Source of the DNA: Actinomyces israelii DSM 43320
GTDB lineage: Bacteria > Actinomycetota > Actinomycetes > Actinomycetales > Actinomycetaceae
NCBI RefSeq assembly: GCF_000711965.1
Contig: NZ_JONS01000005.1
Span: 62,001 to 126,000 of the forward strand
Direction of reading: 5' to 3'
Length of the DNA: 64,000 bases
The translations under genes were made by a program, and so were the position numbers. The notes beneath the pieces were generated by a model. The model was not told the origin of the DNA. It made no database searches and worked only from the letters and a program-made list of their open reading frames with translations. Shown here in pieces: positions 12,228 through 56,959 of the stretch. How positions within the stretch are numbered: position 1 is the stretch's first letter; each line of letters opens with the position of its first letter.

Positions 12228-12296
12228 GGGCCCATCCTGCCACCGGGGCCGCCGGCGGCCCGCCTCAGCGCTGCGGTCCAGTGCGGGCCGGTGGTG

Positions 12297-12368
12297 CTTA
12301 CTACGCTCCTTTGTCCCTTACTGTACGGGGAAAAGGAGCGTAGTAAGGAACAAAGGAGCGTAGTAAGC
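12297..12368. repeat. CTTACTACGCTCCTTT palindromic element, copy 1
   Basis: About 70 bp. The arm CTTACTACGCTCCTTT (12298-12313) faces two successive reverse complements of itself, so either can pair with it. Nearly identical to 54645-54716. It lies at the end of the small frame 12301-12594 and upstream of purC, and may act as a terminator, although it has no T-tract. Confidence 0.85.
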
Positions 12369-15630: not shown

Positions 15631-15715
15631 CTCCGGCCCGAGAGCATCAGAAGCGACTGCCCTTGCCACCACACGCCCTAACACCCGCATCCGCTGGCAA
15701 ATCACTCCCGTCCTT

Positions 15716-15833
15716 GTCCGTCAGAATGACATTGGAATCGGACGACGTCGTGCCCCGCTGTACAATCCGCAGAATTCCAACGCTCGCCCCACCGCCGCGC
15801 CCGCCCGGTGCGGCCAATGTCATTCTGACGGAC
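15716..15833. repeat. 118-bp inverted-repeat element, arm GTCCGTCAG type, copy 1
   Basis: Perfect 20-bp arms (GTCCGTCAGAATGACATTGG, 15716-15735, and its complement 15814-15833) enclose exactly 78 bp. Similarity to copy 2 (16878-16995) continues a short way outside both arms. The loop read on the minus strand carries AATTCTGCGGATT. Confidence 0.9.
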
Positions 15834-15885
15834 ATCCAGGACGGCAGAGCGAACCGGCCCCACGCCGTCGTGCCCCATACCGATC

Positions 15886-16746
15886 TCATGCCGGCCGGGG
15901 CCCGCCCGTCTCCGGGCGAGCCGCAACGATCCTGCGGACCTCCGTGACGATCTTGCCCGAACGCACGTCGTTCGAGGTAAAGCGGACGACGGCATAGCCC
16001 CGTCGGACGAGCTCGCGGTCCCGTCGCCGATCTTGGTCGAAGGTCCACGGATCAGAATGGAAGGTGAACCCATCCAGCTCGACAACCAGCCAGCCGTCCA
16101 CCACCAGATCGACCTCTCCGACTCCAGCGATGACGACACCGTCGGCCACATCCAGACCAGCTGCCCGCAGCTGGATGCGAGCCAGTGTCTCCAGCGGGCT
16201 GCGGGCCCGACCACTGGCCCGCCCCAGCCGAAGGCGACCCCGAGCCCGTCGCGGCCCTCGCAGATGCGCAAGCACCTGTGCCCTCGTCGTACCGCGGTGC
16301 AAGGCGGCGTCTGCGACCACGAGCGAGGTCCGCTCATCGCCGCAGCACAGCAGGTCGGCCACACAGTGCTCCACAGAAACGACCGGGAAAGCGGTCGGCG
16401 GAAGAATAGAACGCCCCCGAACCTCATGAACACGCTCGCCACCAACCGAAGGAATCTTACTGCCCTGGGGAGCCAGCACGTGAATCTCCCGCGGAGCGCC
16501 GAGCAGCGGCAGGCCGTAGTAGGCAGCGGCGTGCTCACAGGTGATGAGACCGCGGTGGATGCGGGCCACCAGCACACGTCGGTCGGCATTGGGGACGGCG
16601 ACAACGCCGTGGGGGTGGAGCCGGAGGCGGCCCGATTCAACGAGCCGCTCAAGGTACCTGCGCTCATTTCGAGTCAGGTGCAGATCAGCCCGGCGCACGG
16701 CGCCCCGGGCCGCGCCGACACGGGAGAGCAAGACGTCGTCGTCCAT
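15886..16746 (-). CDS. DUF559 (Vsr-like nuclease fold) protein with AbiEi-like N-terminus
   Basis: 286 aa. The C-terminal third is a DUF559 domain of the restriction-endonuclease-like fold: GEVDLVVDGWLVVELDGFTFHS, with D and E-x-D positioned as catalytic residues, then RDRELVRRGYAVVRFTSNDV. The N-terminal part (ERRYLERLVESGRLRLHPHGVVAVP, then LITCEHAAAYYGLPLL) resembles the winged-helix of AbiEi-type antitoxins. Such solitary fusions are common in actinobacteria and their role is unsettled. The gene is flanked on both sides by copies of the 118-bp element in direct orientation, and a perfect DnaA box lies at 16798-16806 just upstream. Confidence 0.85.
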   Translation of the reverse strand: MDDDVLLSRVGAARGAVRRADLHLTRNERRYLERLVESGRLRLHPHGVVAVPNADRRVLVARIHRGLITCEHAAAYYGLPLLGAPREIHVLAPQGSKIPSVGGERVHEVRGRSILPPTAFPVVSVEHCVADLLCCGDERTSLVVADAALHRGTTRAQVLAHLRGPRRARGRLRLGRASGRARSPLETLARIQLRAAGLDVADGVVIAGVGEVDLVVDGWLVVELDGFTFHSDPWTFDQDRRRDRELVRRGYAVVRFTSNDVRSGKIVTEVRRIVAARPETGGPRPA

Positions 16747-16877
16747 GGAACGATTGTCGGCCGCGTGCGGGAAGCGGCGCCAGGGAGGAGCGCGCCTGTG
16801 GATAACTCTCCGCAGCCCTTGGCGCTCCCATACGGATGGATTCTGGCGACCTCAGCGGGTCATGTGCTCCCGTCCGT

Positions 16878-16995
16878 GTCCGTCAGAATGACATTGGAGC
16901 CGGAAGGAGCAGCTCCCCGCCACACGATCCGCAGGATTCCAACGCTCGCCCCGCCGCCGCGTCCGCCCGGTGCGGCCAATGTCATCGTGACGGAC
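16878..16995. repeat. 118-bp inverted-repeat element, arm GTCCGTCAG type, copy 2
   Basis: Arms 16878-16897 and 16976-16995 match except for two adjacent bases; loop again 78 bp. The right half of the loop is almost identical to copy 1 (ATCCGCAGGATTCCAACGCT). Same orientation as copy 1, so the two form direct repeats around the DUF559 gene. Confidence 0.9.
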
Positions 16996-17047
16996 ATCCA
17001 GGACGGCGGCGCGGGCAGGGGAAGGCCAGGGGGTCGGCAAAGTTGGT

Positions 17048-30755: not shown

Positions 30756-30825
30756 GTCGAGATAGACATTTTCGGACGAGATAGACGGCGACACCGCCTA
30801 TCTCGTCCGAAAATGTCTATCTCGA
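30756..30825. repeat. GTCGAGATAGACATTTTCGG palindrome, copy 1
   Basis: Arms of about 32-34 bp, complementary but for a 2-nt bulge, with a very short loop; it sits 23 bp past the fbaA stop and could serve as its terminator. A diverged relative is at 53107-53174. Confidence 0.85.
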
Positions 30826-30847
30826 CGCGGGCAGCGCCCGGCCGGTC

Positions 30848-32785: not shown

Positions 32786-33544
32786 TCAGTCCGGGGCGGG
32801 GCCGGCGTGCTGGAGGATCCAGGCGTGCATGGCGACGGCGGCGGCCGCGGCCACGTTGATGGAGCGCGTCGAGCCGTACTGGCCAATGCGCAGCAGGCGG
32901 GAGCACCGCGCCAGCAGCTCGGGGCTGATTCCCTCGCCCTCGGAGCCGAAGATCATGAGGCAGCGCTGGGGCAGGGCCTCGCCCTCCAGCCGCCGCGAGC
33001 CGGGGCCGTTGTCGACGGCGACCGCCTCATAGTCCGCCTCGGTGGCCCAGGCGAGCAGCTCGGCGGGCTCGGGATGGTGGCGCACGTCGAGGTAGCGGTT
33101 GGTGACCATGGCGCCGCGCCTGTTCCACCGACGCCGGCCCACGATGTGGACGCCGGCGACGTTGAAGGCGTTGGCGGTGCGCACGATCGAGCCGATGTTG
33201 AGGTCCTGGCTCACGTTCTCGACGGCCACGTGCAGCAGGTGCGCGCGGGCGGCGAGGTCGGCGCGGATCGCCTCGACGCTCCAGTAGCGATAGCGGTCGA
33301 CGACGTTGCGCCGGTCGCCCGAGGCGAGCAGCTCGCGGTCGTAGCGCGGATCGGCCGGCCAGGCCGCACGCCCGCCCGGCCAGGGCCCCACCCCGACCTC
33401 GCGGCGGTCGGCCGGGGCGTCTTCGTCCAGCGGAGCGGGCCGAGGCCGACGGCTGGCCCGCCACTCGCCCTCAGGCGGGTCGGACGTCTCCACCGGCTCG
33501 CTGTCGGCAGACCCCTGAGCAGCTGGGCGCATGTCGTGATCCAT
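32786..33544 (-). CDS. SpoU/TrmH family RNA 2'-O-methyltransferase
   Basis: 252 aa. SPOUT-family motifs are clear: ENVSQDLNIGSIVRTANAFN (motif 1), LMIFGSEGEGIS (motif 2) and LRIGQYGSTRSINVAAAAAVAMH (motif 3), forming the knotted SAM-binding site. Residues 1-75 are a variable, Asp/Pro-rich extension with a possible recognition helix. The substrate (tRNA or rRNA) cannot be assigned. A spoU gene near pyrE and fba is also seen in mycobacteria, supporting vertical inheritance. Confidence 0.92.
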   Translation of the reverse strand: MDHDMRPAAQGSADSEPVETSDPPEGEWRASRRPRPAPLDEDAPADRREVGVGPWPGGRAAWPADPRYDRELLASGDRRNVVDRYRYWSVEAIRADLAARAHLLHVAVENVSQDLNIGSIVRTANAFNVAGVHIVGRRRWNRRGAMVTNRYLDVRHHPEPAELLAWATEADYEAVAVDNGPGSRRLEGEALPQRCLMIFGSEGEGISPELLARCSRLLRIGQYGSTRSINVAAAAAVAMHAWILQHAGPAPD

Positions 33545-33695
33545 GGCGGCATTGTCCCGCCCCGCCCGCCCCTCTCGCCGAGATCAGTTGTGAGCCAATC
33601 GTCGATCCGCTCGGGCGGGACGGCCGCCGGGCGATGGCGACCTGACGGCTGTGTTCTCAGCGTTCCATCTGCGCTCGGAGCGGGGTCGAGGCGCA

Positions 33696-33907
33696 GTTGC
33701 ACATGGGAGGAAGCGACTTCAGAGACAGGACGCTAATTTTCGTTGAGATTCTGCGCTTTTTTCGACGTCGTCAAAGCTCGTTGACACGCTCCCACGTGCG
33801 CGTAGGGGGTCTGCGCACATGGGAGCGGTGCTTCGCTCACCACCGATACTTCGTTTCCGCATGATTCCGCGCTTCCAGCTGGAGCGGGTAGCAATCGAAT
33901 GTGCAAC
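33696..33907. repeat. Double inverted-repeat element, arm GCACATGGGAG type, copy 1
   Basis: Arms in order: GTTGCACATGGGAG (33696), CTCCCACGTGC (33789), GCACATGGGAG (33815) and ATGTGCAAC (to 33907). The first and last arms pair perfectly over 9 bp, the middle two form a hairpin with one mismatch. Loops are 79 and 78 bp. Related to 56746-56959. Confidence 0.9.
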
Positions 33908-34013
33908 TCCCGCCCGCATGTACGAGCCGAGGCCGACTCGGCGAGGCCTCGCGACGCTCCAGGCCATCGACCTGCAGGAAGTTCCTGCGGGGTCCGGCCT
34001 CTATGCCGTGAGC

Positions 34014-34330
34014 TCACGCGAAGGATGCCCGGCGGTAGAGCAGCGCGATGTTCTTAAGCGTCGCCCGATCGGGCTCCGCATCACAGGCGTACGTGCCCGC
34101 GTCAGGATCGAAGGCATGTTGTGCAGCGGCTCTCACCTCATAAGGGTCCTGCCCCCGGTCACCAGCCGGCGCGTCGACACGTGCAACTCGTCACCGAGGG
34201 CTGCCGGCTCCACCGCAGCGAGGCTGCGGGCACCGCGGAGTGACTTGGAGAAGGCTGAGGCGGAATGCCCGCAGCCTGAACCACGTCTTCCCGCGTGCGG
34301 CTTCCACGTCGAACTCACCGTCGCTGGCGC
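34014..34330 (-). pseudogene. Unidentified decayed gene
   Basis: Three protein-like fragments follow one another in different minus-strand frames: GEFDVEAARGKTWFRLRAF, then LAAVEPAALGDELHVSTRRL, then DPYEVRAAAQHAFDPDAG...ATLKNIALLYRRASFA ending in TGA at 34014. Their order and amino-acid character suggest one gene broken by two frameshifts, with the N-terminus lost. I do not recognise the family. Confidence 0.35.
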
Positions 34331-34466
34331 CCTCGCGGAGCGAGGGACCGCCAGCGCGGCCTCCACGTATCGGGCCCGCCAGACGAGGGCCGGCCTGGGG
34401 TCGGCCAGTCGGACCCGCCTGGCCGGCGTCGTCGGCCCAACCCCAACGCCCCAGCCCCAACCGCCC

Positions 34467-35288
34467 CTACTTCACGGCCCCGGAGGTGATGCCCGAGATG
34501 ATCTGCCGCTGGAAGACGGTGAAGAGCACGACCAGCGGGGCGCTCATGAGGAGGATGTAGGTGAAGATGAGATGCCAGTTGTTCAGGTGCACCCCTGCGC
34601 TCGCCACCGCGAAGAGGTTGAGCGGCAGGGTGTCCATGTGCCCGCCCACCACGAAGAAGGCGTAGAAGACGTCGTTCCACACGTACAGGCTGATGAGAAT
34701 GGTCGCCGTGGCCAGCACCGGGCGCAGCAGCGGCAGGATAATGGTGAGGAAGACCCGCAGCGGCCCCGCGCCGTCGATGCGCGCCGCCTCCTCCAGCGAG
34801 ACCGGGACCGTGCGCACGAAGCCCGTCACGAAGAAGATGACGGTGGACAGATACATCCCCACGTAGGCACAGATCATGCCCACGGCGGTCCCCGCCAGGC
34901 CCAGCTGGCGCAGCAGGAGCACCAGGGTCACCACGGCCGGCGGCAGGATGATCCCGCAGATGCCGACGGCGTAGACCACGGCCGCCGCCCTCCCCGAGCG
35001 GCGCGCCAGCACCCAGGCGGCCATGGAACCCAGGACGAGCACGAGGGCTACGGAGGGGACCAGGAGCAGCAGGCTGCCGATGAAGGCGGCTCCGACGCGG
35101 GCACGGGAGACCACCTCGGCCGTATTGGCCCCCAGCTGCCAGTGCGAGGGCAGGGACAAATCCGGGCTGAGGGCCTCGGCCTGCGACTTGCCGGCGGTGA
35201 CCAGGACCGTCCACAGCGGCACTCCCACCAGGACGGCTGCCAGCAGCACCGCGACGACCGGCTGGATTCCACGCTTGAGGCGGTTCAT
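34467..35288 (-). CDS. Sugar ABC transporter permease, MalG type
   Basis: 273 aa inner-membrane permease of a CUT1 carbohydrate importer. Six hydrophobic segments are evident, and the EAA loop reads EEAARIDGAGPLRVFLTIILPLLRP, which docks the ATPase. LYVWNDVFYAFFVV is typical of MalG-like subunits. Its ATG overlaps the stop of the MalF-type gene by 4 nt. No ATP-binding subunit is encoded in the window, so a shared MsiK-like ATPase elsewhere is likely, as in many actinobacteria. Confidence 0.95.
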   Translation of the reverse strand: MNRLKRGIQPVVAVLLAAVLVGVPLWTVLVTAGKSQAEALSPDLSLPSHWQLGANTAEVVSRARVGAAFIGSLLLLVPSVALVLVLGSMAAWVLARRSGRAAAVVYAVGICGIILPPAVVTLVLLLRQLGLAGTAVGMICAYVGMYLSTVIFFVTGFVRTVPVSLEEAARIDGAGPLRVFLTIILPLLRPVLATATILISLYVWNDVFYAFFVVGGHMDTLPLNLFAVASAGVHLNNWHLIFTYILLMSAPLVVLFTVFQRQIISGITSGAVK

Positions 35289-36193
35289 GCCATGTTCCTC
35301 TCTCGACGCCGGAGCATCCCGATGACGGGGAAGGCCAGCAGGACCACGGCCAGGAAGAGCACGAGGCTCATGGTCGTGGCCTGGGCGTACAGGCCCTGGC
35401 CGAAGGTGCGGAAGATGTACAGGTTGAGCAGCTCGGTGGAGCCCCCGGGCCCGCCCCCGGTGGTGGCCTGGACGATGTCGAAGGAGTTCATCGAGCCCAG
35501 GAGGGCCGTGGCCACATTGAAGGTGACGGCCGGGGCGATCAGCGGGATCCGGATCCGGGTGAGGGTCTGCCAGCGCGAGGCCCCGTCGATGCGGGCGGCC
35601 TCCAGGACCTGGTGGTCAATGGTCTTGAGTCCCGCCAGGTAGACGAGCATGGACATGCCCATCCACTTCCAGGCGTGGATGATGATGACGACCAGCAGGG
35701 TCCAGCGCGTGGAGCCCAGCCAGGCGATGCTCACCGGCCCGCCCGTCAGCAGACCCAGGAGCTGGTTCACTCCGCCGTCGGGCTTGAGGAGGGCCTGGAA
35801 GACGTAGCCGACCGCCAGGGCCGACATAATGACCGGGATGAAGAAGACCACCCGGACGACCTTGTTGACGGCCGTGTCCCGCTCCAGGAGGAGGGCGAGC
35901 CCCAGCCCGAAGAGGTTCTGGACGACCGCCACCCCGCCGGCGTACAGGAGGGTGATCACCAGGGACCGGCGCAGGTCGCCGGAGGAGGCCAGCTGGGCGA
36001 AGTTGCTCCACCCCGTGGGCTGGATCGAGGACTTGAAGCTGGACCAGTCCGTGAAGGCGTAGACGAAGTTGTACAGCGTGGGGGTCAGGAAGAACACCGC
36101 GAGCACGGCGAACGCCGGGACGACGAAGGCCCAGGGGTGGGCGGCGCCCGAACCGCGGACGCCGCGCCGCGACCCGCCTCGTGCGGCCGCCAT
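35285..36193 (-). CDS. Sugar ABC transporter permease, MalF type
   Basis: 302 aa. After a short Gly/Arg-rich N-terminus come six membrane segments; the EAA motif is LEAARIDGASRWQTLTRIRIPLIAP. The region FDIVQATTGGGPGGSTELLNLYIFRTF is characteristic of CUT1 MalF/LacF-type subunits. It starts 2 nt after the binding-protein stop and overlaps the MalG-type gene, so the operon is tight: alpha-galactosidase, binding protein, MalF, MalG. Context suggests import of alpha-galactosides such as melibiose or raffinose. Confidence 0.95.
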   Translation of the reverse strand: MAAARGGSRRGVRGSGAAHPWAFVVPAFAVLAVFFLTPTLYNFVYAFTDWSSFKSSIQPTGWSNFAQLASSGDLRRSLVITLLYAGGVAVVQNLFGLGLALLLERDTAVNKVVRVVFFIPVIMSALAVGYVFQALLKPDGGVNQLLGLLTGGPVSIAWLGSTRWTLLVVIIIHAWKWMGMSMLVYLAGLKTIDHQVLEAARIDGASRWQTLTRIRIPLIAPAVTFNVATALLGSMNSFDIVQATTGGGPGGSTELLNLYIFRTFGQGLYAQATTMSLVLFLAVVLLAFPVIGMLRRRERNMA

Positions 36194-36195
36194 GC

Positions 36196-37545
36196 TCAGA
36201 AGCCCTTCGCGCCGATGGCCTTGGCGAGCTGGACGAACTGCGCCTGCGTCTCCTGCCCCACCTGGGCGGGCGTCTTGGTCCCGGCGATCATGTCGCCCAG
36301 GTTCTTGGCCAGGTCCGGGTTGGCAATGGCCAGGGACTGCATGGAGCCCACGGAGGAGGCCAGGGTCTTGTTGGACTCCACCAGGGCCGCGGGAGCCGTG
36401 GCGGGGGTGTCAACCCCCGAGATGATCGAGACCGTGTTCTGCTCCTTGATGAAGTCGGCGTAGCCCTCGGAGAGCCAGTAGGTCAGGAGCTGGCGGGCGG
36501 CGGTCTCGCGCGAGGAGTCGCCGGTGGCGAAGACGACGACGGCGTTGGTCTGGTCGGGGATGGACGTCGCCAGGGCACCCTTCTTGGAGATCGGGAAGAA
36601 GCCGATGGTGGAGTCCAGGGTGCTCGCGTCCGCCTGGGCGGCCATATTGGCCAGGAGGCTGGTGACCTGGATGGCCATGGCGGCCTTGCCGTCCAGGAGG
36701 GCTTTGGCCTGCTGGTCGAAGGTGGCGGTCTTGATGTCCTCGTTGAACAGGCCCTCGCCGATCATGGAGCTGTAGGCGTCAATGGCGCCCTGGATGTCCG
36801 TGCCCGTGAAGGCGTCCTCGTTGGCGTTGACCCTGTCCCACAGGCCGTCCTTGGCGGCGTCGGCCAGCTGGACCTGGACGGCCCACTGGGAGGCCCACCA
36901 CTCGCCTCCCATCTCGTAGAAGGGGGTGACGCCCTTGCCCTTGAGGGAGCGCGCCGCGGTGAGGAGCTCCTCGAAGCTCTTGGGGATCGTGACGCCGTTG
37001 GCCTCGAAGACCTTCTTGTTGTACCACACTCCCATGACGGAGGGGGCGGAGATGAAGGCGGCGTAGCGGGTGCCCTCCAGCGTGCCGCCGGCGTCCAGGA
37101 CGCTGGCGTCGGTGGCGGCCTCCCAGGGGGCGCCGTCCAGGGGCAGGAGACGCTCCTTGGCGCCCAGGCTCAGCAGCTGGGAGGCGGTGGGCTGCCACAT
37201 GGCCAGGTCCGGGAGGTCACCGGTGGCGACCTTGGTCTGGACGCCCTGCTCGTAGGGGTCGGGGATGGTGACGATCGAGACCCTCGCGTCGGTGGCCTCC
37301 TCGAAGGCCTTGACCACGGTGGCGGGGATCTTGGCGGAGGACTGGGCCGCCCAGAAGGTCAGCTCGACGCCGTCGAGCCCGTCCGTGGCCGCCGGCCAGG
37401 AGGCCGGGGCGCCCTGGCCCGCGGCGCCGCTGCCAGGGTCGGAGCAGGCGGCGAGCGCGATGGCGCCGACGAGCGAGGCGGCCATGGCCAGGGAGGCGCG
37501 CCGGGTCACGGGCGCGGTCAGCGGGTTGAGGGGGCTGCGGTTCAT
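36196..37545 (-). CDS. Sugar ABC transporter substrate-binding lipoprotein
   Basis: About 449 aa from ATG 37545 (GGAG upstream); an ATG at 37560 that overlaps the preceding stop is possible. The N-terminus has an Arg pair (TRRASLAM), a hydrophobic core and the lipobox ALAACSD, so the protein is a lipid-anchored extracytoplasmic binding protein. VELTFWAAQSSAKIPATVVKAFEEATDARV and YNKKVFEANGVTIPKSFEELLTAA are typical of family 1 solute-binding proteins. Ligand inferred to be an alpha-galactoside from its neighbours. Confidence 0.94.
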   Translation of the reverse strand: MNRSPLNPLTAPVTRRASLAMAASLVGAIALAACSDPGSGAAGQGAPASWPAATDGLDGVELTFWAAQSSAKIPATVVKAFEEATDARVSIVTIPDPYEQGVQTKVATGDLPDLAMWQPTASQLLSLGAKERLLPLDGAPWEAATDASVLDAGGTLEGTRYAAFISAPSVMGVWYNKKVFEANGVTIPKSFEELLTAARSLKGKGVTPFYEMGGEWWASQWAVQVQLADAAKDGLWDRVNANEDAFTGTDIQGAIDAYSSMIGEGLFNEDIKTATFDQQAKALLDGKAAMAIQVTSLLANMAAQADASTLDSTIGFFPISKKGALATSIPDQTNAVVVFATGDSSRETAARQLLTYWLSEGYADFIKEQNTVSIISGVDTPATAPAALVESNKTLASSVGSMQSLAIANPDLAKNLGDMIAGTKTPAQVGQETQAQFVQLAKAIGAKGF

Positions 37546-37556
37546 GGGTTCTCCGT

Positions 37557-39683
37557 TCATGCGGCGTCATTGACGCAGTGGTGGGACCGGACCAGGTAGG
37601 CCCGGGCGAGGGGTGTGGCCGCGCCGGTCAGGCGCAGCCCGTGCGGACCGGGCTCGGCGCGCAGGCCGGGCTCGGGGACGAGGTCACGGGGCGGGTAGAT
37701 CTGCTCGACGCCGCAGTCCGCCAGCGCGGGCAGGAGGATCTCGGGCGCACCGGAGCCCAGGCCGGGCCGGTGCCACACCAGGAGGATCCCCTCGCGGGAG
37801 TGCGGGGAGGCGGCGCGGGCGGCCACCACCCAGGGGTCGTTCCAGCCGGCGACGTCGGCGGGCCACCAGGGCGCGTCCCGGCACAGGTGTGTGCGCAGGG
37901 CCTTGGCCAGGTCGGCGGCGGCGCGCACCAGGGCGATCTGGTGGTCGCTCATCCGGTCCAGGTGCCCCGAGAGGTAGACGGAGCCGGCCAGGGAGGTGAC
38001 CAGGGTGTAGACGATCTCCTCGTCGCTCATCCCCGGCTGCGGGTACCCCCAGCTGGCGGCCTGCTCGGGCAGGACCGTCAGGGGGGCGTTGGCGGCGATG
38101 GGCGGGTAGCGCAGGGGGTCCTGGAGGTCTGAGGTGGACTGGAGGCGGGCGGCGGCCAGAAGCGCGTAGTCGGTGGTCATGCCGCCGGAGGCGCAGTTCT
38201 CAACCACCAGGCCCGGGTGGCGCCGCCCCAGGGCGGCGAGCCACCCGGCCCACGCCCGGGAGTGCTCCAGGAGGGCGTCGCCGGCCGAGTCGGCACCGGC
38301 GTCGGGCCCGGCGCCCGCGGAGTAGTTGTCGTCCACCTTGAGGTAGCCGATGCCGTAGCCGACCATCCGGTCCACGACGGCGTCGAGGTGCTCGCGCGCG
38401 GCCGGGTGACGCATGTCCAGGCGCAGGCGGCCCTGCTCGATGAGGAGGCTGCCGCCGCGGCGCATGAAGGCTTCAGCGGGAAGGCTGCGGGCCAAGGGGC
38501 TGCGCGCCCCGACGGCGAGGGGCTCGATCCACAGCCCGGGGGACATCCCCTCCGCGCGGATGAGGTCCAGAGTGGCTCCAAGCCCCTCGGGGAAGCGGCG
38601 AGCGGAGGGCTCCCAGGCGCCGACGGCGTCCCACCAGGCCCCGTCCTCCTCGTCGGAGTGCCAGCCGTCGTCGATGCAGTAGACCTCGGCGCCGGCGCGG
38701 GCGGCCGCGGGCACGAGGGTGGCCAGGCGCTCCGCCGTCGGGTCGGCCATGAGGGTGTTCATGTAGTCGTTGAAGACGACGGGGGCCGGGTCGGTGGTGG
38801 GCGCCGTGCGCTCACGCAGGGCCCGGCGGTAGGCCGTGAGCTCGACGGCGGCCCCCTGCCAGCCGCCGTCGGACAGGACGAGGGCCGCGGTGGGGGTGGC
38901 CGCCTCCTGGCCGGGGTGCAGGACGCGCATCCAGCCGTGCTGAAGGTCGGTGGGGCCGCAGACCACCAGGCCCAGGACGCCGCCGCGGCGGGAGACCTCC
39001 ACCGTCCAGGCGCCGTTGTGCTCCACCTGCCAGGCGAGGGCCTGGCCGCCGGCCGGGTCGGTGAGGATGCCGACGGGCTCCCAGCGGCTGGAGGACCACC
39101 CGGACTCCGCGCTCAGGCGCAGGGTGTCGCGGGGGGACTGGCCGTGGACGGCGGTCCCGACGTCGACCAGCTCCTCCCCCAGGCGCTGGTGGCGCCAGCG
39201 CTGCTCGGCCATCCAGGCCGAGGGCGCGGTCATGAGGTCGAGGTCGTCCAGGGGCGCGCCGGGCAGGACGGTGGCGGACAGGATGCTGAGGGCGGTCAGG
39301 TGCAGGGGCGCGGCGCCGTCGTTGCGCACTCGCGTGCGCACCCGCAGGGAGGCGGGGGTGGGGCGTCACAGGTCGGTCAGGGCGACCAGGCCGGTGGTCT
39401 CGTCGCGCTGGGTGAGCAGGTGGTGCGGCCAGGGCCCCTCCTTCTCCTCCAGGGTGACAGGCCGCAGGGCGGCCCCCTGCGCGGTGCGGGTCAGGCGGTG
39501 ATCCACGAAGGCCCGTCCGGTCTCCACAGTCAGGCACTCCACCAGGGGGAGGGCCGGGACGTGGGCCGGGCTGCCGCCGACCGCGAGCGCCGCGGGCCGG
39601 CCGGGCTGGATGCGCAGGCGCGCCATGCCCAGGTCGCGGACGGGCACCGCTGCCGGTGCAGTCAGTGCGGTCATCGCAGTCAT
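37557..39683 (-). pseudogene. GH36 alpha-galactosidase interrupted by an in-frame TGA
   Basis: From ATG 39683 (GGAGG 5 nt upstream) the frame reads 105 codons to ...GLVALTDL, meets TGA at 39366-39368, and then continues in the same frame (RPTPASLRVRTRVRND...) for about 600 more codons. Together the parts make a 708-codon gene of normal GH36 length. The catalytic nucleophile is in GYLKVDDNYSAG and the acid/base in STSDLQDP; CIDDGWHSDEEDGAW is also a family marker. An Arg-to-stop change (CGA to TGA) would explain it. The C-terminal part could still be made from an internal start but would lack part of the N-terminal beta domain. Confidence 0.85.
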
Positions 39684-39769
39684 CAGAACCTCCAGACGAG
39701 GCGGCCCGCATCGGCCCCCTCTCAGACTGCGCCCACCGTAGGAAGGGTCGCATTCGCCTGTCCACGAGC

Positions 39770-39789
39770 TGTGAAACATCCGTTTCACA
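39770..39789. promoter_or_regulatory. Palindromic operator between the galactosidase and GH16 genes
   Basis: TGTGAAACATCCGTTTCACA has perfect 8-bp arms around 4 bp. It lies in the divergent promoter region of the alpha-galactosidase operon and the GH16 gene. Size and symmetry suit a LacI-family repressor; one is encoded at 41998-42978. Confidence 0.75.
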
Positions 39790-39874
39790 AGATTCTGCGG
39801 GGATCTTCCCGCTGTCTCCGTCGAGGTCTACCGTGCGTTGAGGACCCTCCGAGTCGTGCGAAGGAGCATGAACG

Positions 39875-41137
39875 ATGACCCCGATGACCCCGGTGACCCC
39901 GGTGACCTCGATGACACTGAGCCGACGTCGCGCCGTCCTGTCCGCGGCGGTCCTGACCGGGCTCCCCCTTCTGGGCCCGCCCGCCCCGGCCCGCGCAGAG
40001 GGAACGGACATCAACCTGAAGGAGTGGACGCTCATCGACTCCCTCAGCGACGGCTTCGACGCCCCTCTGGACTCCGCCCGCTGGCACCGCGGCCTGTGGT
40101 ACCCGACCTCTGGGGTCGGGGCCTTCCGCGACGAGAACGCGGAGGTCTCCGACGGCGTCCTGCGCCTGTGGGCCAGGGCCGAGGGATCCGGGGGCGGGGG
40201 CGGCGCCAGCCACACCTTCGGGGCTGTGGAATCCGTCTTCGACACCCCCGGCGTGTGCAGCTACGTGGAGGTCCGCGCCAGGGCCCTGCCCTCAGCCGCC
40301 CGCGTGCTCTCCGCCGTCTGGCTCCAGTCCTCCACCCTCAGCGGCGAGAACGCCCTGGCCGCCGACCCGAACCCGGAGATCGACGTCCAGGAGACCTTCG
40401 ACTTCCACGCCATGACCTCGGCCACGCACATCTGGCCGGGCGGCAACGACGCCGGCCACCGATCCTTCGGCGGGCACACCTACCCGACGGCCGATGACGT
40501 CTCCTCGGACTACCACTTCTACGGCGTCGAGCGCCGGGAGGGCGAGGTGCTCATCTACTGGGACCGTCATCTCGCCTGGCGCCTGCCCGCCCCCGACCCT
40601 TCCCTGTGGCGCATGTCCCGGCACGTGGTCCTCAGCCTGGAGGGGCACCTGGGCAGGGTCCAGGACTCCGCCCTGCCGGCCTCCTTCGACATCGACTACG
40701 TCCGCACCTACTACCGGACCCCCGCCCGGGTGCAGCCGGACGGAGACGTCCGCGTCCTCGACCCCGAGGGCCGGGCGCTGACCCTGGGCTCTGCGGGCGT
40801 CGTGCTCAGCGCCTCCACCGGTGAGGACACTCGCTGGCGCCTGCGCCGCCAGGACGATCTCACCTATGTGCTCGCTTCGCCGTCGGGGGCCGTGCTGGGC
40901 GCCGAGTCCGCCACCGGCTATGCGGGCGGGGGCCTGGTGGCCTCCCCCGGGGCGGGTACCGGGACGGACACCGCGGGCAGCCGGTACCGGTGGCACGTCC
41001 TGCCGGTGGAGGACGGAGTGAGGATCCGCTCCAAGCTCAGCGGCCTTGCCCTGTCCTCCGGAGGCGGACAGCTGGTCACCGGGGAGGAGGAGCAGGCGAC
41101 GACGTGGCGGATCGAGTCCCCCGCCTCCACCCAGTAG
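39875..41137 (+). CDS. Secreted GH16-like glycoside hydrolase with C-terminal trefoil-like domain
   Basis: 420 aa from ATG 39875 (AAGGAG 8 nt upstream). A twin-arginine signal (LSRRRAVLSAAVLTGLPLL) ends PARAEG, predicting Tat export. Residues about 45-285 are a GH16 jelly roll: GFDAPLDSARWHRG, the active-site EIDVQET near residue 168 (nucleophile, Asp, acid/base), and DYHFYGVERREGEVLIYWD. The last 130 residues (WRLRRQDDLTYVLASPSG, YRWHVLPVEDGVRIRSK) look like a ricin-type trefoil. Substrate unknown; GH16 enzymes cut beta-glucans, agars or related galactans. Divergent from the galactoside operon and possibly coregulated. Confidence 0.85.
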   Translation: MTPMTPVTPVTSMTLSRRRAVLSAAVLTGLPLLGPPAPARAEGTDINLKEWTLIDSLSDGFDAPLDSARWHRGLWYPTSGVGAFRDENAEVSDGVLRLWARAEGSGGGGGASHTFGAVESVFDTPGVCSYVEVRARALPSAARVLSAVWLQSSTLSGENALAADPNPEIDVQETFDFHAMTSATHIWPGGNDAGHRSFGGHTYPTADDVSSDYHFYGVERREGEVLIYWDRHLAWRLPAPDPSLWRMSRHVVLSLEGHLGRVQDSALPASFDIDYVRTYYRTPARVQPDGDVRVLDPEGRALTLGSAGVVLSASTGEDTRWRLRRQDDLTYVLASPSGAVLGAESATGYAGGGLVASPGAGTGTDTAGSRYRWHVLPVEDGVRIRSKLSGLALSSGGGQLVTGEEEQATTWRIESPASTQ

Positions 41138-41158
41138 GGACCCCGCCGCCCCCTCTCA

Positions 41159-41194
41159 TCGAGATCGGTTCAGTTCCGGCTCGAGATCGGTTCA
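41159..41194 (+). repeat. GATCGG 22-bp repeat, two units
   Basis: GAGATCGGTTCAGTTCCGGC then TCGAGATCGGTTCAG, 22 bp past the GH16 stop. Confidence 0.88.
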
Positions 41195-41365
41195 GAGCAC
41201 CAGACGCCTCATGAGCCCCTTTGGCCACAGCAACCTCGTCGCGGGCCGCCTCAACACATCGCGGCCGAGAAGCACCCTACGCCCTCTTCACCCCCGGCAC
41301 TCCGCGAGTGCCGCACAAAATACCGGAATACTGCGGCGGTGCACGGCCGGGTCTCGGGACCGGGT

Positions 41366-41483
41366 GTCCGCCAGAATGACATTGGACCCCTCGGACGCCC
41401 TTCCCCTCGAAGACATCCCTGCAATGACGCGGTTCCCCACCGGCGCCTCAGCAGCCCGAGCAGCCAATGTCATTCTGACGGAC
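41366..41483. repeat. 118-bp inverted-repeat element, arm GTCCGTCAG type, copy 3
   Basis: Arms 41366-41385 and 41464-41483 (one mismatch) enclose exactly 78 bp whose sequence differs strongly from copies 1 and 2, although the length is identical. Confidence 0.9.
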
Positions 41484-41624
41484 AGCTGCGCACTCCGACA
41501 GGCCCAACACATCATCATCCGGCCGACCCGGCCCATCCTCTGGACCGCGAGAAGAACCATGACGCCCGAGCCCCCCAGCGGCCAACCCGCATCCCCGCCC
41601 CGCACCACTGCCAGAGCGACAACG

Positions 41625-41661
41625 AACCGATCTCGAGCCGGAACCGAACCGATCTCGACGT
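41625..41661 (-). repeat. GATCGG 22-bp repeat, two units
   Basis: Minus-oriented pair. With 41159-41194 it brackets the 118-bp element in inverted orientation. Confidence 0.85.
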
Positions 41662-41997
41662 GGGAAATCACGACCGGCTCTCACCCCAGGTCCAGCCAGC
41701 TGAGTCCCAGCAGACAGCGACGCTCGGCCTCGCCCGCCGAGCTCCGCCAAGCCGACGACGCACTAGGTCACCGGGCCTGACAAGACCCACAGGCGCACCG
41801 GCCGCAACCGGCCGGGCGGTTACAACCCGCGCCGAGCAAAGCGGCCTCCCGTCCCGCTACTCATGCGGGCCTCACAGCAGCATGACTCGAACTCGTGACC
41901 TCCAGCAGACGGGGACGGCCGCCCCCTCGCGTAGCCTGGTGGGGCGCCCGTTCCGCCTCGGGCGCCCCACCGGGGAACGACGTCGGAGAGGTGGCGC

Positions 41998-42978
41998 ATG
42001 AACGAGACCAGGCGCCCGTGGTTCCCGCCCCGGCTCGCCGACGTCGCCGCCCGCGCCGCGACATCCAAGGCGACCGCATCACGCGCCCTGAGCAGAGACC
42101 AGCCGGCGGCCTCCCCCACCACCAAGCGGGTGCGACGGGCCGCCCGCGACCTGGGATATCGCCCCGCCACCGACCGCGCCCACCTCCTGGTCCTCTCCAC
42201 GGACATCAGCCGCACCGGCTACTGGGCGACCGTGTCGGGGGTGCTAGCCGCCTCCGACGAGTTCGGCGTGGACCTGTCCGTCCACGGCCTGAGCGGCGGC
42301 CCGCAGCGGCGGCGCGAGATCCTCTCCCGCGCCCTGGACGGACGCGTGGACGGCGTCGTCCTCCTGGAGTTCGACTCCCTGAGCGTGGCGACCCTGGAAG
42401 ACCTGCCCGTGGACCTGCCGGTGGCGATCGCCGGAGGCCGCCCGGACCCCGAACAAGAGGAGCCGCCCCGGGCCTGGACGGACGACTACGCCGGCGCCAT
42501 GACCGCGACCCGGCACCTGTGCGACCTGGGCCACGAGCAGCTGGCCTATGTGGGCGTACCGAGTGCTGGCCACCCGGATCCGCGCCTGGCCGGCTGGCGC
42601 GAGGTCCTGGCCCAACGCCACCTGCGCGGCGGCGAGCCCCTGGCCCTCGGCTGGTCGGTGGAGACGGGGCTGCGAGCCGCCGCGACCGTGCGGGCCTCAG
42701 GGGCGACGGCGGTCCTGTGCGGCAACGACGACCTGGCGATCGGGCTGGTCGCGGGGCTCGCGCGCGAAGGCGCCCGGGTGCCGCAGGACGTCTCCGTGGT
42801 GGGCGTGGATGATCACCCCCACGCTCCCGGCATGATCCCGGCCCTGACGACCGTGCGCCTGGACTTCGCGGCCGTGGGCGAGGCCGCGGCCCGCCTGGCC
42901 CTGGGGGTGGAGGCGGGGCCCGTCGTCGAGGTCCCCACGCAGCTGGTGGTCCGCGACTCCACGGCGCCGCCTCCGTGA
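41998..42978 (+). CDS. LacI family transcriptional regulator
   Basis: 326 aa. The N-terminal helix-turn-helix reads PRLADVAARAATSKATASRALS, then the hinge RVRRAARDLGYRPATDRAH. A periplasmic-binding-protein-like effector domain follows: LLVLSTDISRTGYWATVSGVLAASDEFG, DGVVLLEFDSL, HLCDLGHEQLAYVG and GNDDLAIGLVAGLAREGARVPQDVSVVGVDD. GAGAGG lies upstream of the ATG. Probably controls the nearby galactoside and GH16 genes through the 39770 palindrome; the effector is inferred to be a sugar. Confidence 0.95.
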   Translation: MNETRRPWFPPRLADVAARAATSKATASRALSRDQPAASPTTKRVRRAARDLGYRPATDRAHLLVLSTDISRTGYWATVSGVLAASDEFGVDLSVHGLSGGPQRRREILSRALDGRVDGVVLLEFDSLSVATLEDLPVDLPVAIAGGRPDPEQEEPPRAWTDDYAGAMTATRHLCDLGHEQLAYVGVPSAGHPDPRLAGWREVLAQRHLRGGEPLALGWSVETGLRAAATVRASGATAVLCGNDDLAIGLVAGLAREGARVPQDVSVVGVDDHPHAPGMIPALTTVRLDFAAVGEAAARLALGVEAGPVVEVPTQLVVRDSTAPPP

Positions 42979-43037
42979 GTCCGACGACGCCGGGGGTCCA
43001 AGCGAGACGATGAACGGAGGCCGCTTGGTGCACACGT

Positions 43038-43097
43038 GAACCGATCTCGAGCCGGAACTCGACCGATCTCGGTGCGGGATACTACCGATCTCGGCGA
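43038..43097 (-). repeat. GATCGG 22-bp repeat, three units
   Basis: Three minus-oriented units between the convergent ends of the LacI gene and pyrE, where transcripts of both genes would end. Confidence 0.88.
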
Positions 43098-43122
43098 AAA
43101 GACGGCAGGCGGGTCGGGCGGG

Positions 43123-43868: not shown

Positions 43869-44004
43869 GGGAAAAGGTGGCTCCTACGCACTTTTAACGC
43901 CGAACCCCGCCCCGCCTGTGCTGCAGAACCGCGGAATCACACCGATCCACACCGCGCCCGAGACCGCCGACCACCTTAAAAGTGCGTAGGAGCCACCTTT
44001 TCCC
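43869..44004. repeat. 136-bp inverted-repeat element with 29-bp perfect arms
   Basis: Left arm 43869-43897 starts GGGAAAAGGTGGCTCCTACG; right arm 43976-44004 is its exact complement. The loop is exactly 78 bp, as in the GTCCGTCAG elements, and read on the minus strand carries GATTCCGCGGTTCT. The arms are unrelated in sequence to those of the other loci. Confidence 0.92.
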
Positions 44005-54640: not shown

Positions 54641-54644
54641 CGCG

Positions 54645-54716
54645 CTTACTACGCTCCTTTGTCCCTTACTGTACGAGGAAAAGGAGCGTAGTAAGGAACA
54701 AAGGAGCGTAGTAAGC
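54645..54716. repeat. CTTACTACGCTCCTTT palindromic element, copy 2
   Basis: Differs from copy 1 (12297-12368) by one base in the loop. It sits between the convergent ends of xth and the serine hydrolase gene, a position suited to a bidirectional terminator. Confidence 0.88.
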
Positions 54717-54727
54717 GCGGCGGACGG

Positions 54728-56745: not shown

Positions 56746-56959
56746 GCTGCACATGGGAGAGCAGGGCCGTCGCAGGGATAGCGCAGGTTTCCGTTGAGAT
56801 TCAGCGGTTTCTCAAGATGCGTCAAGATCGGTTGACGCGCTCCCATGTGCGCAGAGGGGGGTCTGCGCACATGGGAGAGGTATCTCGGTGCTCGTCGAGA
56901 TCTCATTTCCGCATGATTCCGCGGTTTCGCTCGGCGCGCACCGCAAACGAATGTGCAGC
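56746..56959. repeat. Double inverted-repeat element, arm GCACATGGGAG type, copy 2
   Basis: Arms: GCTGCACATGGGAG (56746), CTCCCATGTGCGCAGA (56840-56855), TCTGCGCACATGGGAG (56862-56877), ATGTGCAGC (56951-56959). The middle pair is a perfect 16-bp stem with a 6-bp loop; outer ends pair over 9 bp, with a T-to-C / A-to-G change relative to copy 1 that keeps the pairing. Loops are 80 and 78 bp. Confidence 0.9.

Follow-up and report, generated by a model that had tools for sequence, protein, structure and literature searches.

Inverted-repeat units of fixed plan and variable ends adjoin nuclease genes in Actinomyces israelii, suggesting a little-known system that spreads or uses the repeats

Among the closest described systems are the REPINs, which in the available part of their source (PMC3116915) are inverted doublets whose ends are conserved and whose loop, of set length, is less so, present in many intergenic copies; they form families within a genome, and the enzyme genes, each single-copy, have copies of the repeat close by. 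The accessible text of a second source (PMC3733652) reports CGTC repeats that lack a dedicated transposase, RAYT-like genes with unrelated long terminal inverted repeats (TIRs) on either side, called TIRtrons, and some families of short bacterial palindromic repeats for which no enzyme is known; that text mentions neither Actinomyces nor Actinobacteria by name. In Actinomyces israelii DSM 43320 we find inverted-repeat units of ~120 bases that combine a fixed plan with changing ends. Several kinds of unit adjoin a nuclease gene of their own, suggestive of a little-known system by which the repeats are spread or used. A sequence-only reading of the same DNA had known of no described family with this plan, and we found none that matched in searches of the literature, with most subscription journals outside their reach; among the matches listed there was likewise nothing relevant on a DUF559/Vsr-like nuclease paired with palindromic repeats, or on Actinomyces repeats.

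The stretch of 64,000 nucleotides that was analysed, referred to here as the window, carries four single elements, two double elements and one nuclease gene:

15715-15834, plus strand: group-1 unit of 120 bp, TG...CA, loop of 78 bp, with arms TGTCCGTCAGAATGACATTGG; 3' of the nuclease gene; core at 15765-15784, score 20.3
15886-16746, minus strand: AbiEi-DUF559 protein of 286 amino acids, proposed cognate enzyme of group 1, encoded between two units
16877-16996, plus strand: group-1 unit of 120 bp, 5' of the nuclease gene; core at 16927-16946, score 21.6
33698-33905, plus strand: group-3 (type B) double; cores at 33739-33758 and 33855-33874, central hairpin CTCCCACGTGCGC/GCGCACATGGGAG
41365-41484, minus strand: group-1 unit with a loop of 78 bp and its core on the minus strand
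43878-43995, minus strand: group-2 unit of 118 bp, TGG...CCA; core at 43927-43946, score 29.9; complementary flanks extend it to 43869-44004
56748-56957, plus strand: group-3 (type B) double; cores at 56790-56809 and 56907-56926

A single unit consists of an arm, 29-30 bp, a centred core of 20 bp, a further 29-30 bp and the complementary arm, for a total of ~118-122 bp. The consensus of the core is ATCCGCGTGATTCCGCGGTT, and when units are oriented by it the spacer between arm and core measures 29 bp on each side, or 30 in group 3. Single elements have a natural unit bounded by TG and CA, 120 bp long for group 1 and 118 bp for group 2, and the same ends are found in type A. Each unit is an inverted doublet of conserved sequences with a set loop length. 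The 78-bp loop that the sequence-only reading had placed at all four single elements is there, at 15736-15813, 16898-16975, 41386-41463 and 43898-43975, the arms at 16878 and 16976 being mismatched at 2 of 20 positions. The 78-80 bp that it gave for each half of the doubles also holds: the GGGAG/CTCCC arms of the first halves stand 79 and 80 bp apart, and in the second halves, by reading, the complementary stretch is GCACAT/ATGTGC only, with 78 bp between. A core common to most loops was borne out as well, its pattern occurring six times in the window against 0.41 expected (the group-1 arm also occurs six times, against 0.00). Two details had to be revised. The copy at 41366, said to keep the core weakly, keeps it with a score of 20.0 on the minus strand, and the element described as spanning 43869-44004 retains its loop of 78 bp while its span proves to include an extension of the arms beyond the natural unit.

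The preference for 78 bp over a broad spread of loop lengths withstood a scan of 445 kb of the A. israelii genome for inverted repeats (14-bp arms, at most 2 mismatches, loops of 40-140, with arm trimming shifting a loop by a few bases), because all 14 core-bearing centres among the 892 detected had loops of 72-80, whereas those of the remaining 878 were spread roughly evenly over 40-140. Over the same 445 kb, a core matrix trained on 61 units of the genome, many of them outside this sample, scored at least 16 at 24 places, against none when the sequence was reversed. Of these 24 places, two lie outside recognisable units (C2:89766, within a called gene, and C2:191286) and another, C5:17995, is a unit with one decayed arm. 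Among 109 distinct cores drawn from 90 loci, 64 have arms pairing at 10 or more of 12 positions, compared with 4 of 109 at random positions, where the arms were scattered. In 55 of the 64 armed cores, 28-31 bp separate the end of the left arm from the core, and the other 45 cores lack symmetric arms by this test.

Genome-wide, group 1 comprises 18 units, with a loop of 78 in 16, 79 in one and 80 in one. Its arms are conserved (median identity 92%) and its loops variable (median 52%), and lone group-1 arms number only two, both of them decayed units. We considered a 78-bp element inserted into pre-existing palindromes, and rejected the idea because the arms are the conserved part of group 1 and the loops the variable part. 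Group 2 has at least 20 units, counted at the loci of the best 30 of 85 matches, and all 20 share the loop length of the window unit (80 when one arm base is trimmed per side, the same length as the window's). Six more units carry a variant group-2 outer arm; four are of the same length, one is a base shorter and one eight bases longer. The exact central hairpin of group 3 occurs at 14 places.

The plan holds across the genus Actinomyces, with arm types that differ between families and species. The core is present in 44 of 49 Actinomyces genomes and absent from the other five at up to 3 mismatches, the search yielding 533 matches against 5 for a reversed control. Variants of the TGTCCAAATCNGNNNCAAAGG arm occur in genomes G003, G001 and G010, the TGTCCACATCTGCCGCAAAGG arm in G028, the TGTCCAGATCCCTGACAAAGG and GCACATCTTCA arms in G035, and a GGCGCTCTGGGAGGATCGTTC-type arm in G022. 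The exact group-1 pattern is restricted to its own genome (1 of 59), yet a species-private family was rejected, the core search finding relatives genus-wide. In a wider contig collection, which may lack A. israelii and its near kin, the exact group-2 pattern gave 10 loci that were set aside uninspected. We take these to be five from Pasteurellaceae, three from Bacteroidota and two others, the Pasteurellaceae matches presumably being uptake-signal coincidences.

Other repeats share the window with these units. Direct repeats with a 22-bp period, GAGATCGGTTC-N-GTTCCGCGCC, of 1-3 units each, lie at about fifteen places between 9341 and 63038; several adjoin inverted-repeat units, and they are present in G061 and G028 too. 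A long hairpin, GTCGAGATAGACATTTTCGGACGAGATAGACGG, at 30756-30826 is matched by a hairpin at the syntenic position of G061 (C1:1010192), and another palindromic family, GCTTACTACGCTCCTTTGTCCCTTACT, found at 12296-12368 and 54641-54719, has relatives in the G061 sample.

The protein encoded at 15886-16746 joins an AbiEi-like winged-helix part (residues ~1-178) to a DUF559/MTES_1575 part (~179-279) of the Vsr-like or homing-type nucleases. PADLOC calls the N-terminal part AbiEi, and both the winged helix and the antitoxin domain of that fold were found in it. The nuclease part matches PF04480 above the Pfam cut-off and PF18741 below its cut-off. A structure model of the protein (pLDDT 89.6) matches the folds of PDB entries 1cw0, 1vsr and 3r3p, such that fold and profile both indicate a PD-(D/E)xK Vsr-like nuclease; the other rows of the fold search (VIA-align; generic winged helices, Holliday junction resolvases, mitoribosome proteins and MenT1) were taken as common arrangements. 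In an alignment of homologues E211 and D213 are invariant and E223, D225, H230 and D239 nearly invariant, and as judged from this conservation the six residues would fit a putative nuclease active site. Sequence searches with the window nuclease gave no match in the PDB or in NCBIfam. Its homologues occur in A. naeslundii, A. ruminicola, A. lilanjuaniae, A. viscosus and A. howellii.

A whole-genome profile search identified two AbiEi-DUF559 genes in A. israelii. The one in the window lies between group-1 units that share the same orientation and whose loops are 79% identical, ranking 6 of 120 pairs (median 52%). The second (contig C38), which falls below the Pfam cut-off, is preceded, ~210 bp before its presumed start, by a group-2 unit, and the locus shows no unit downstream of it. 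For group 3 no nuclease was found in A. israelii, the genome yielding only two DUF559 matches.

The same association is seen in relatives. The complete record NZ_CP116225.1 of A. oris WVU627 (415,503 bp), found by tblastn with the window protein, contains two AbiEi-DUF559 genes according to a profile of the first five proteins: RS11770, bracketed by units at 99762-99881 and 100904-101023, and RS12235, bracketed by units at 220309-220430 and 221660-221781 with arms that differ from those of RS11770. The units at RS12235 retain arms and the 78-bp loop, without the core. By a rule of arm and length the record holds ten units, four of them the bracketing ones; the two bracketing pairs are 93% and 97% identical, and all other pairs 62-79%. 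In A. oris a mirror control returned 179 hits, presumably from simple sequence, and is uninformative. In G061, a 200-kb stretch chosen for synteny contains one gene, with a unit bearing its own arms overlapping the 3' end and lying downstream only, and a 200-kb sample of G028 has core matches, with no AbiEi-DUF559 gene found in it. All four genes that were not picked by their unit neighbourhood (C38, RS11770, RS12235 and the G061 gene; the window gene is excluded) have a unit overlapping them or within ~215 bp, and two of the four have units on both sides, the profile that detected the A. oris and G061 genes having been derived solely from genes flanked by units.

Unit pairs also lead to genes. 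Six of eight fetched pairs spaced 1.0-1.5 kb apart enclose such a gene (G010, G001, G026, G011, G065 and G060), and the pairs at G003:C11 and G006:C1 enclose none. The gene at G003:C23 is overlapped at its 3' end by one unit and has a second ~1 kb upstream, with none within 450 bp upstream. At two loci chosen for their core, the G021 gene has type-B doubles on both sides and the G005 gene a type-B double at its 3' end. A lenient flank test, which detects single units and not type-B doubles, was positive in 14 of 18 against a background of 24% (36 of 150 windows), and because of this background we relied on the stricter unit matches.

The A. oris record holds further repeats. At 127772 and 216897 (L321 and L323) lies a separate inverted-repeat family, CCGGGGACATCCTGCGCG, spanning ~102 bp. 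Two GTTTCACGTGAAAC sites within 114 bp of sequence, at 282900-283013, resemble parS. The record is labelled a plasmid and carries groEL, dnaK and cysS.

Comparison of units with their nucleases showed, at the level of sequence, that arms are more alike where the N-terminal halves of the nucleases are. For seven nucleases arm similarity correlated with identity in the N-terminal half at a Spearman coefficient of 0.62 (48 of 5040 permutations were as high) and with the nuclease (C-terminal) half at 0.18, in an analysis where the arm strings were hand-picked (the outer arm for type B) and the statistics ignore ancestry. In several nuclease genes the 3' unit overlaps the coding sequence, its arm encoding the tail of the protein. 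A VSKSxTK-like peptide encoded by the type-A arm forms the C-terminal end of 37 of 121 homologues, many of them near-identical, and is found elsewhere in the protein in none of the 121. Two homologues, P0115 and P0116, combine a type-A-like N-terminal part with an RS12235-like nuclease part, as if the halves had recombined. The sequence-only reading, supported in part by these results, had lacked both the cognate nuclease genes and the relation between arms and N-terminal halves.

That reading had also proposed examining orthologous regions for sites without a unit, and the comparison revealed units present or absent at orthologous sites. Many genome-wide BLAST matches to one G003 locus share two edges, 246/247 and 366/367, which delimit a unit of ~120 bp running from TGTCC to GGACA. 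Across 12 aligned genomes, a count that leaves out G060 (unresolved) and G017 (unaligned), the orthologous site carries the same unit in six (G003, G006, G007, G010, G065 and G026), a different unit of another subfamily in G001 (L292, G001:C70:204270-204389), no unit in four (G011, G027, G069 and G066) and unrelated sequence in G023. The missing stretch is near unit size only in G011 (query 243-389) and is larger in G027, G069 and G066. In the window, the group-2 unit at 43869 is absent at its junction in G061, G028 and G029, and the double at 56746 is absent at its junction in G061 and G028; in each case the missing stretch exceeds the unit. We infer that the units behave as discrete mobile units, and an absence could also reflect deletion.

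Signs of target duplication were sought in two sets of copies. Among 18 group-1 copies the fraction of 4-bp matches was 0.35 versus 0.32 in shuffled sequence, with other lengths equal or lower, and 24 type-A copies gave no exact direct repeats of 2-9 bp. A type-B copy is common to A. israelii and G061 (L070/L101) at an orthologous position, with a stretch near its centre changed on both arms; its presence in a second species shows that some units have long been resident. Nearly 10 kb of the window (~33433-43118), including two of the elements, has no listed syntenic match in G061 or G028, where its flanks lie 273 and 451 bp apart.

We consider it probable that cognate AbiEi-Vsr nucleases act in trans to spread and maintain the units, which would be non-autonomous palindromic elements of ~120 bp; the plan is like that of REPINs and RAYTs, with an unrelated enzyme. 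Both inverted arms would be bound by the AbiEi-like half. A conserved part of the enzyme, or else a DNA-bending protein of the host, would recognise the centred core, and this core together with the 29-bp spacers would allow the two ends of the 80-bp loop to meet. The Vsr/homing-type domain would then nick or cut at or near the unit ends, and the unit would be copied into a new place by break repair, from which the lack of target duplications would follow. Arms would drift together with the nuclease, the core and spacing staying fixed, and families that had lost their nuclease would persist as orphans, as is perhaps the case for group 3 in A. israelii. More tentatively, we raise the possibility of a new class of mobile DNA in Actinomyces, in which AbiEi-Vsr fusions may act as trans-acting, homing-like mobilisers of ~120-bp palindromic satellites, with a core that fixes geometry, an arm specificity read by the winged helix that diversifies, and several independent pairs per genome.

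The nuclease might instead be a resident regulator or genome-maintenance enzyme, with the units as its operators and dispersed sites (for autoregulation, self-DNA marking, DNA uptake or repair) spread by ordinary recombination. AbiEi antitoxins are DNA-binding autoregulators, and the AbiEi antitoxin fold of the N-terminal part, the unit 5' of both genes of A. israelii, the location of the dispersed units of the A. israelii sample and of A. oris between called or annotated genes, and the conservation of one type-B copy at an orthologous site would all suit such a role. We nevertheless think it unlikely, as units also lie 3' of genes, even overlapping them, and far away in tens of copies; they are present in some genomes and absent in others at orthologous sites, with sharp edges, and five of the 49 genomes have no core match.

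We give a lower probability still to ordinary MITEs that depend on a conventional DDE transposase encoded elsewhere, for which the nuclease genes would be incidental cargo or insertion targets. TIR-like arms with TG...CA ends on discrete, mostly intergenic, multicopy units are what such elements would look like; the absence of target duplications is not. Among the type-A arms of three genomes 98 of 104 are paired ~100 bp apart, and no longer element with these arms was found; of the six lone arms, two are at contig ends and one has a partner with more mismatches. A parent element with the same ends was found neither in A. israelii (group 1) nor in three relatives (type A) at up to 2 mismatches, and the two lone group-1 arms of A. 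israelii, as decayed units, offer none. A search of the genome for rve-type transposases gave few (4 matches, 1 over the cut-off). An IS21/IS3-like parent, hinted at by the TG...CA ends, was rejected on the same evidence of rve matches, arms and target duplications. Ordinary MITEs would, moreover, leave unexplained why several unrelated arm families sit at AbiEi-DUF559 genes.

The fixed core and geometry with changing arms had been read as pointing either to a mobile element or to selection for a DNA or RNA structure; the first part, discrete units resembling mobile elements, stands, and selection for an RNA structure found no support. Transcribed structured RNAs or terminators selected for base pairing are a very improbable main explanation: every family has arms that are complementary to each other, at least one orthologous pair (L070/L101) shows both arms altered in concert, and four group-2 variants fold further in consensus (n=4), whereas the consensus fold of groups 1 and 3 amounts to the arms only and that of group 2 adds little to them, with little folding inside the loop, the arm mismatches on the core strand show no clear strand-specific wobble excess because G-T mismatches number 50 and A-C 38, no covarying fold backed by an Rfam match was found, the Rfam scan of the window having matched nothing at the units and only a tRNA elsewhere, and six dispersed A. 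oris units lie in mixed gaps (3 convergent, 2 tandem and 1 divergent, in an incomplete gene table).

Spread of the units by cognate AbiEi-Vsr nucleases would tie palindromic repeats to a concrete candidate enzyme, accessible to genetic tests, from a different superfamily, with several repeat-enzyme pairs in one genus. DUF559, a family named as of unknown function, gains a candidate role, and the arms apparently change in step with one half of the enzyme. The spread of orphan palindromic repeats thereby becomes open to experiment.

Compared with known systems, the Actinomyces units are most readily set beside REPINs and RAYTs, with which, as far as the available part of that source describes them, they share the inverted doublet, the loop of set length, the many intergenic copies and the occurrence of several families in one genome. 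They differ in the associated protein, an AbiEi part joined to a Vsr-like nuclease; in their arms, which are ~20 bp long and differ between families; and in the 20-bp core that holds the exact centre across unrelated arms. RAYTs and REPINs proper were rejected: the defining Y1/HUH transposase domain (Y1_Tnp, PF01797) gave no match in the A. israelii genome at an E-value of 0.01, with 6 of 14 control genomes positive. The genes with units beside them encode AbiEi-DUF559 nucleases where the REPIN plan has a RAYT. By reading, the GTAG tag is missing from group-1 and type-A arms, and the group-2 arm reads GTAG internally. CGTC-tagged REPs and TIRtrons, as presented in the accessible text of PMC3733652, are likewise families of short palindromes, and their enzymes are, unlike the one described here, tyrosine (HUH) transposases. 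With MITEs the units have in common that they are short, bounded by terminal inverted repeats, non-coding, multicopy and mostly intergenic; they are distinguished by the lack of target duplication and by a core and geometry common to unrelated terminal repeats. The AbiEi antitoxin of type IV toxin-antitoxin systems is the counterpart of the N-terminal half, from which the Actinomyces protein differs by its fusion to a nuclease. From Vsr, DUF559 proteins and the homing endonuclease I-Bth0305I, it differs by its fusion to AbiEi and by its location between repeat units.
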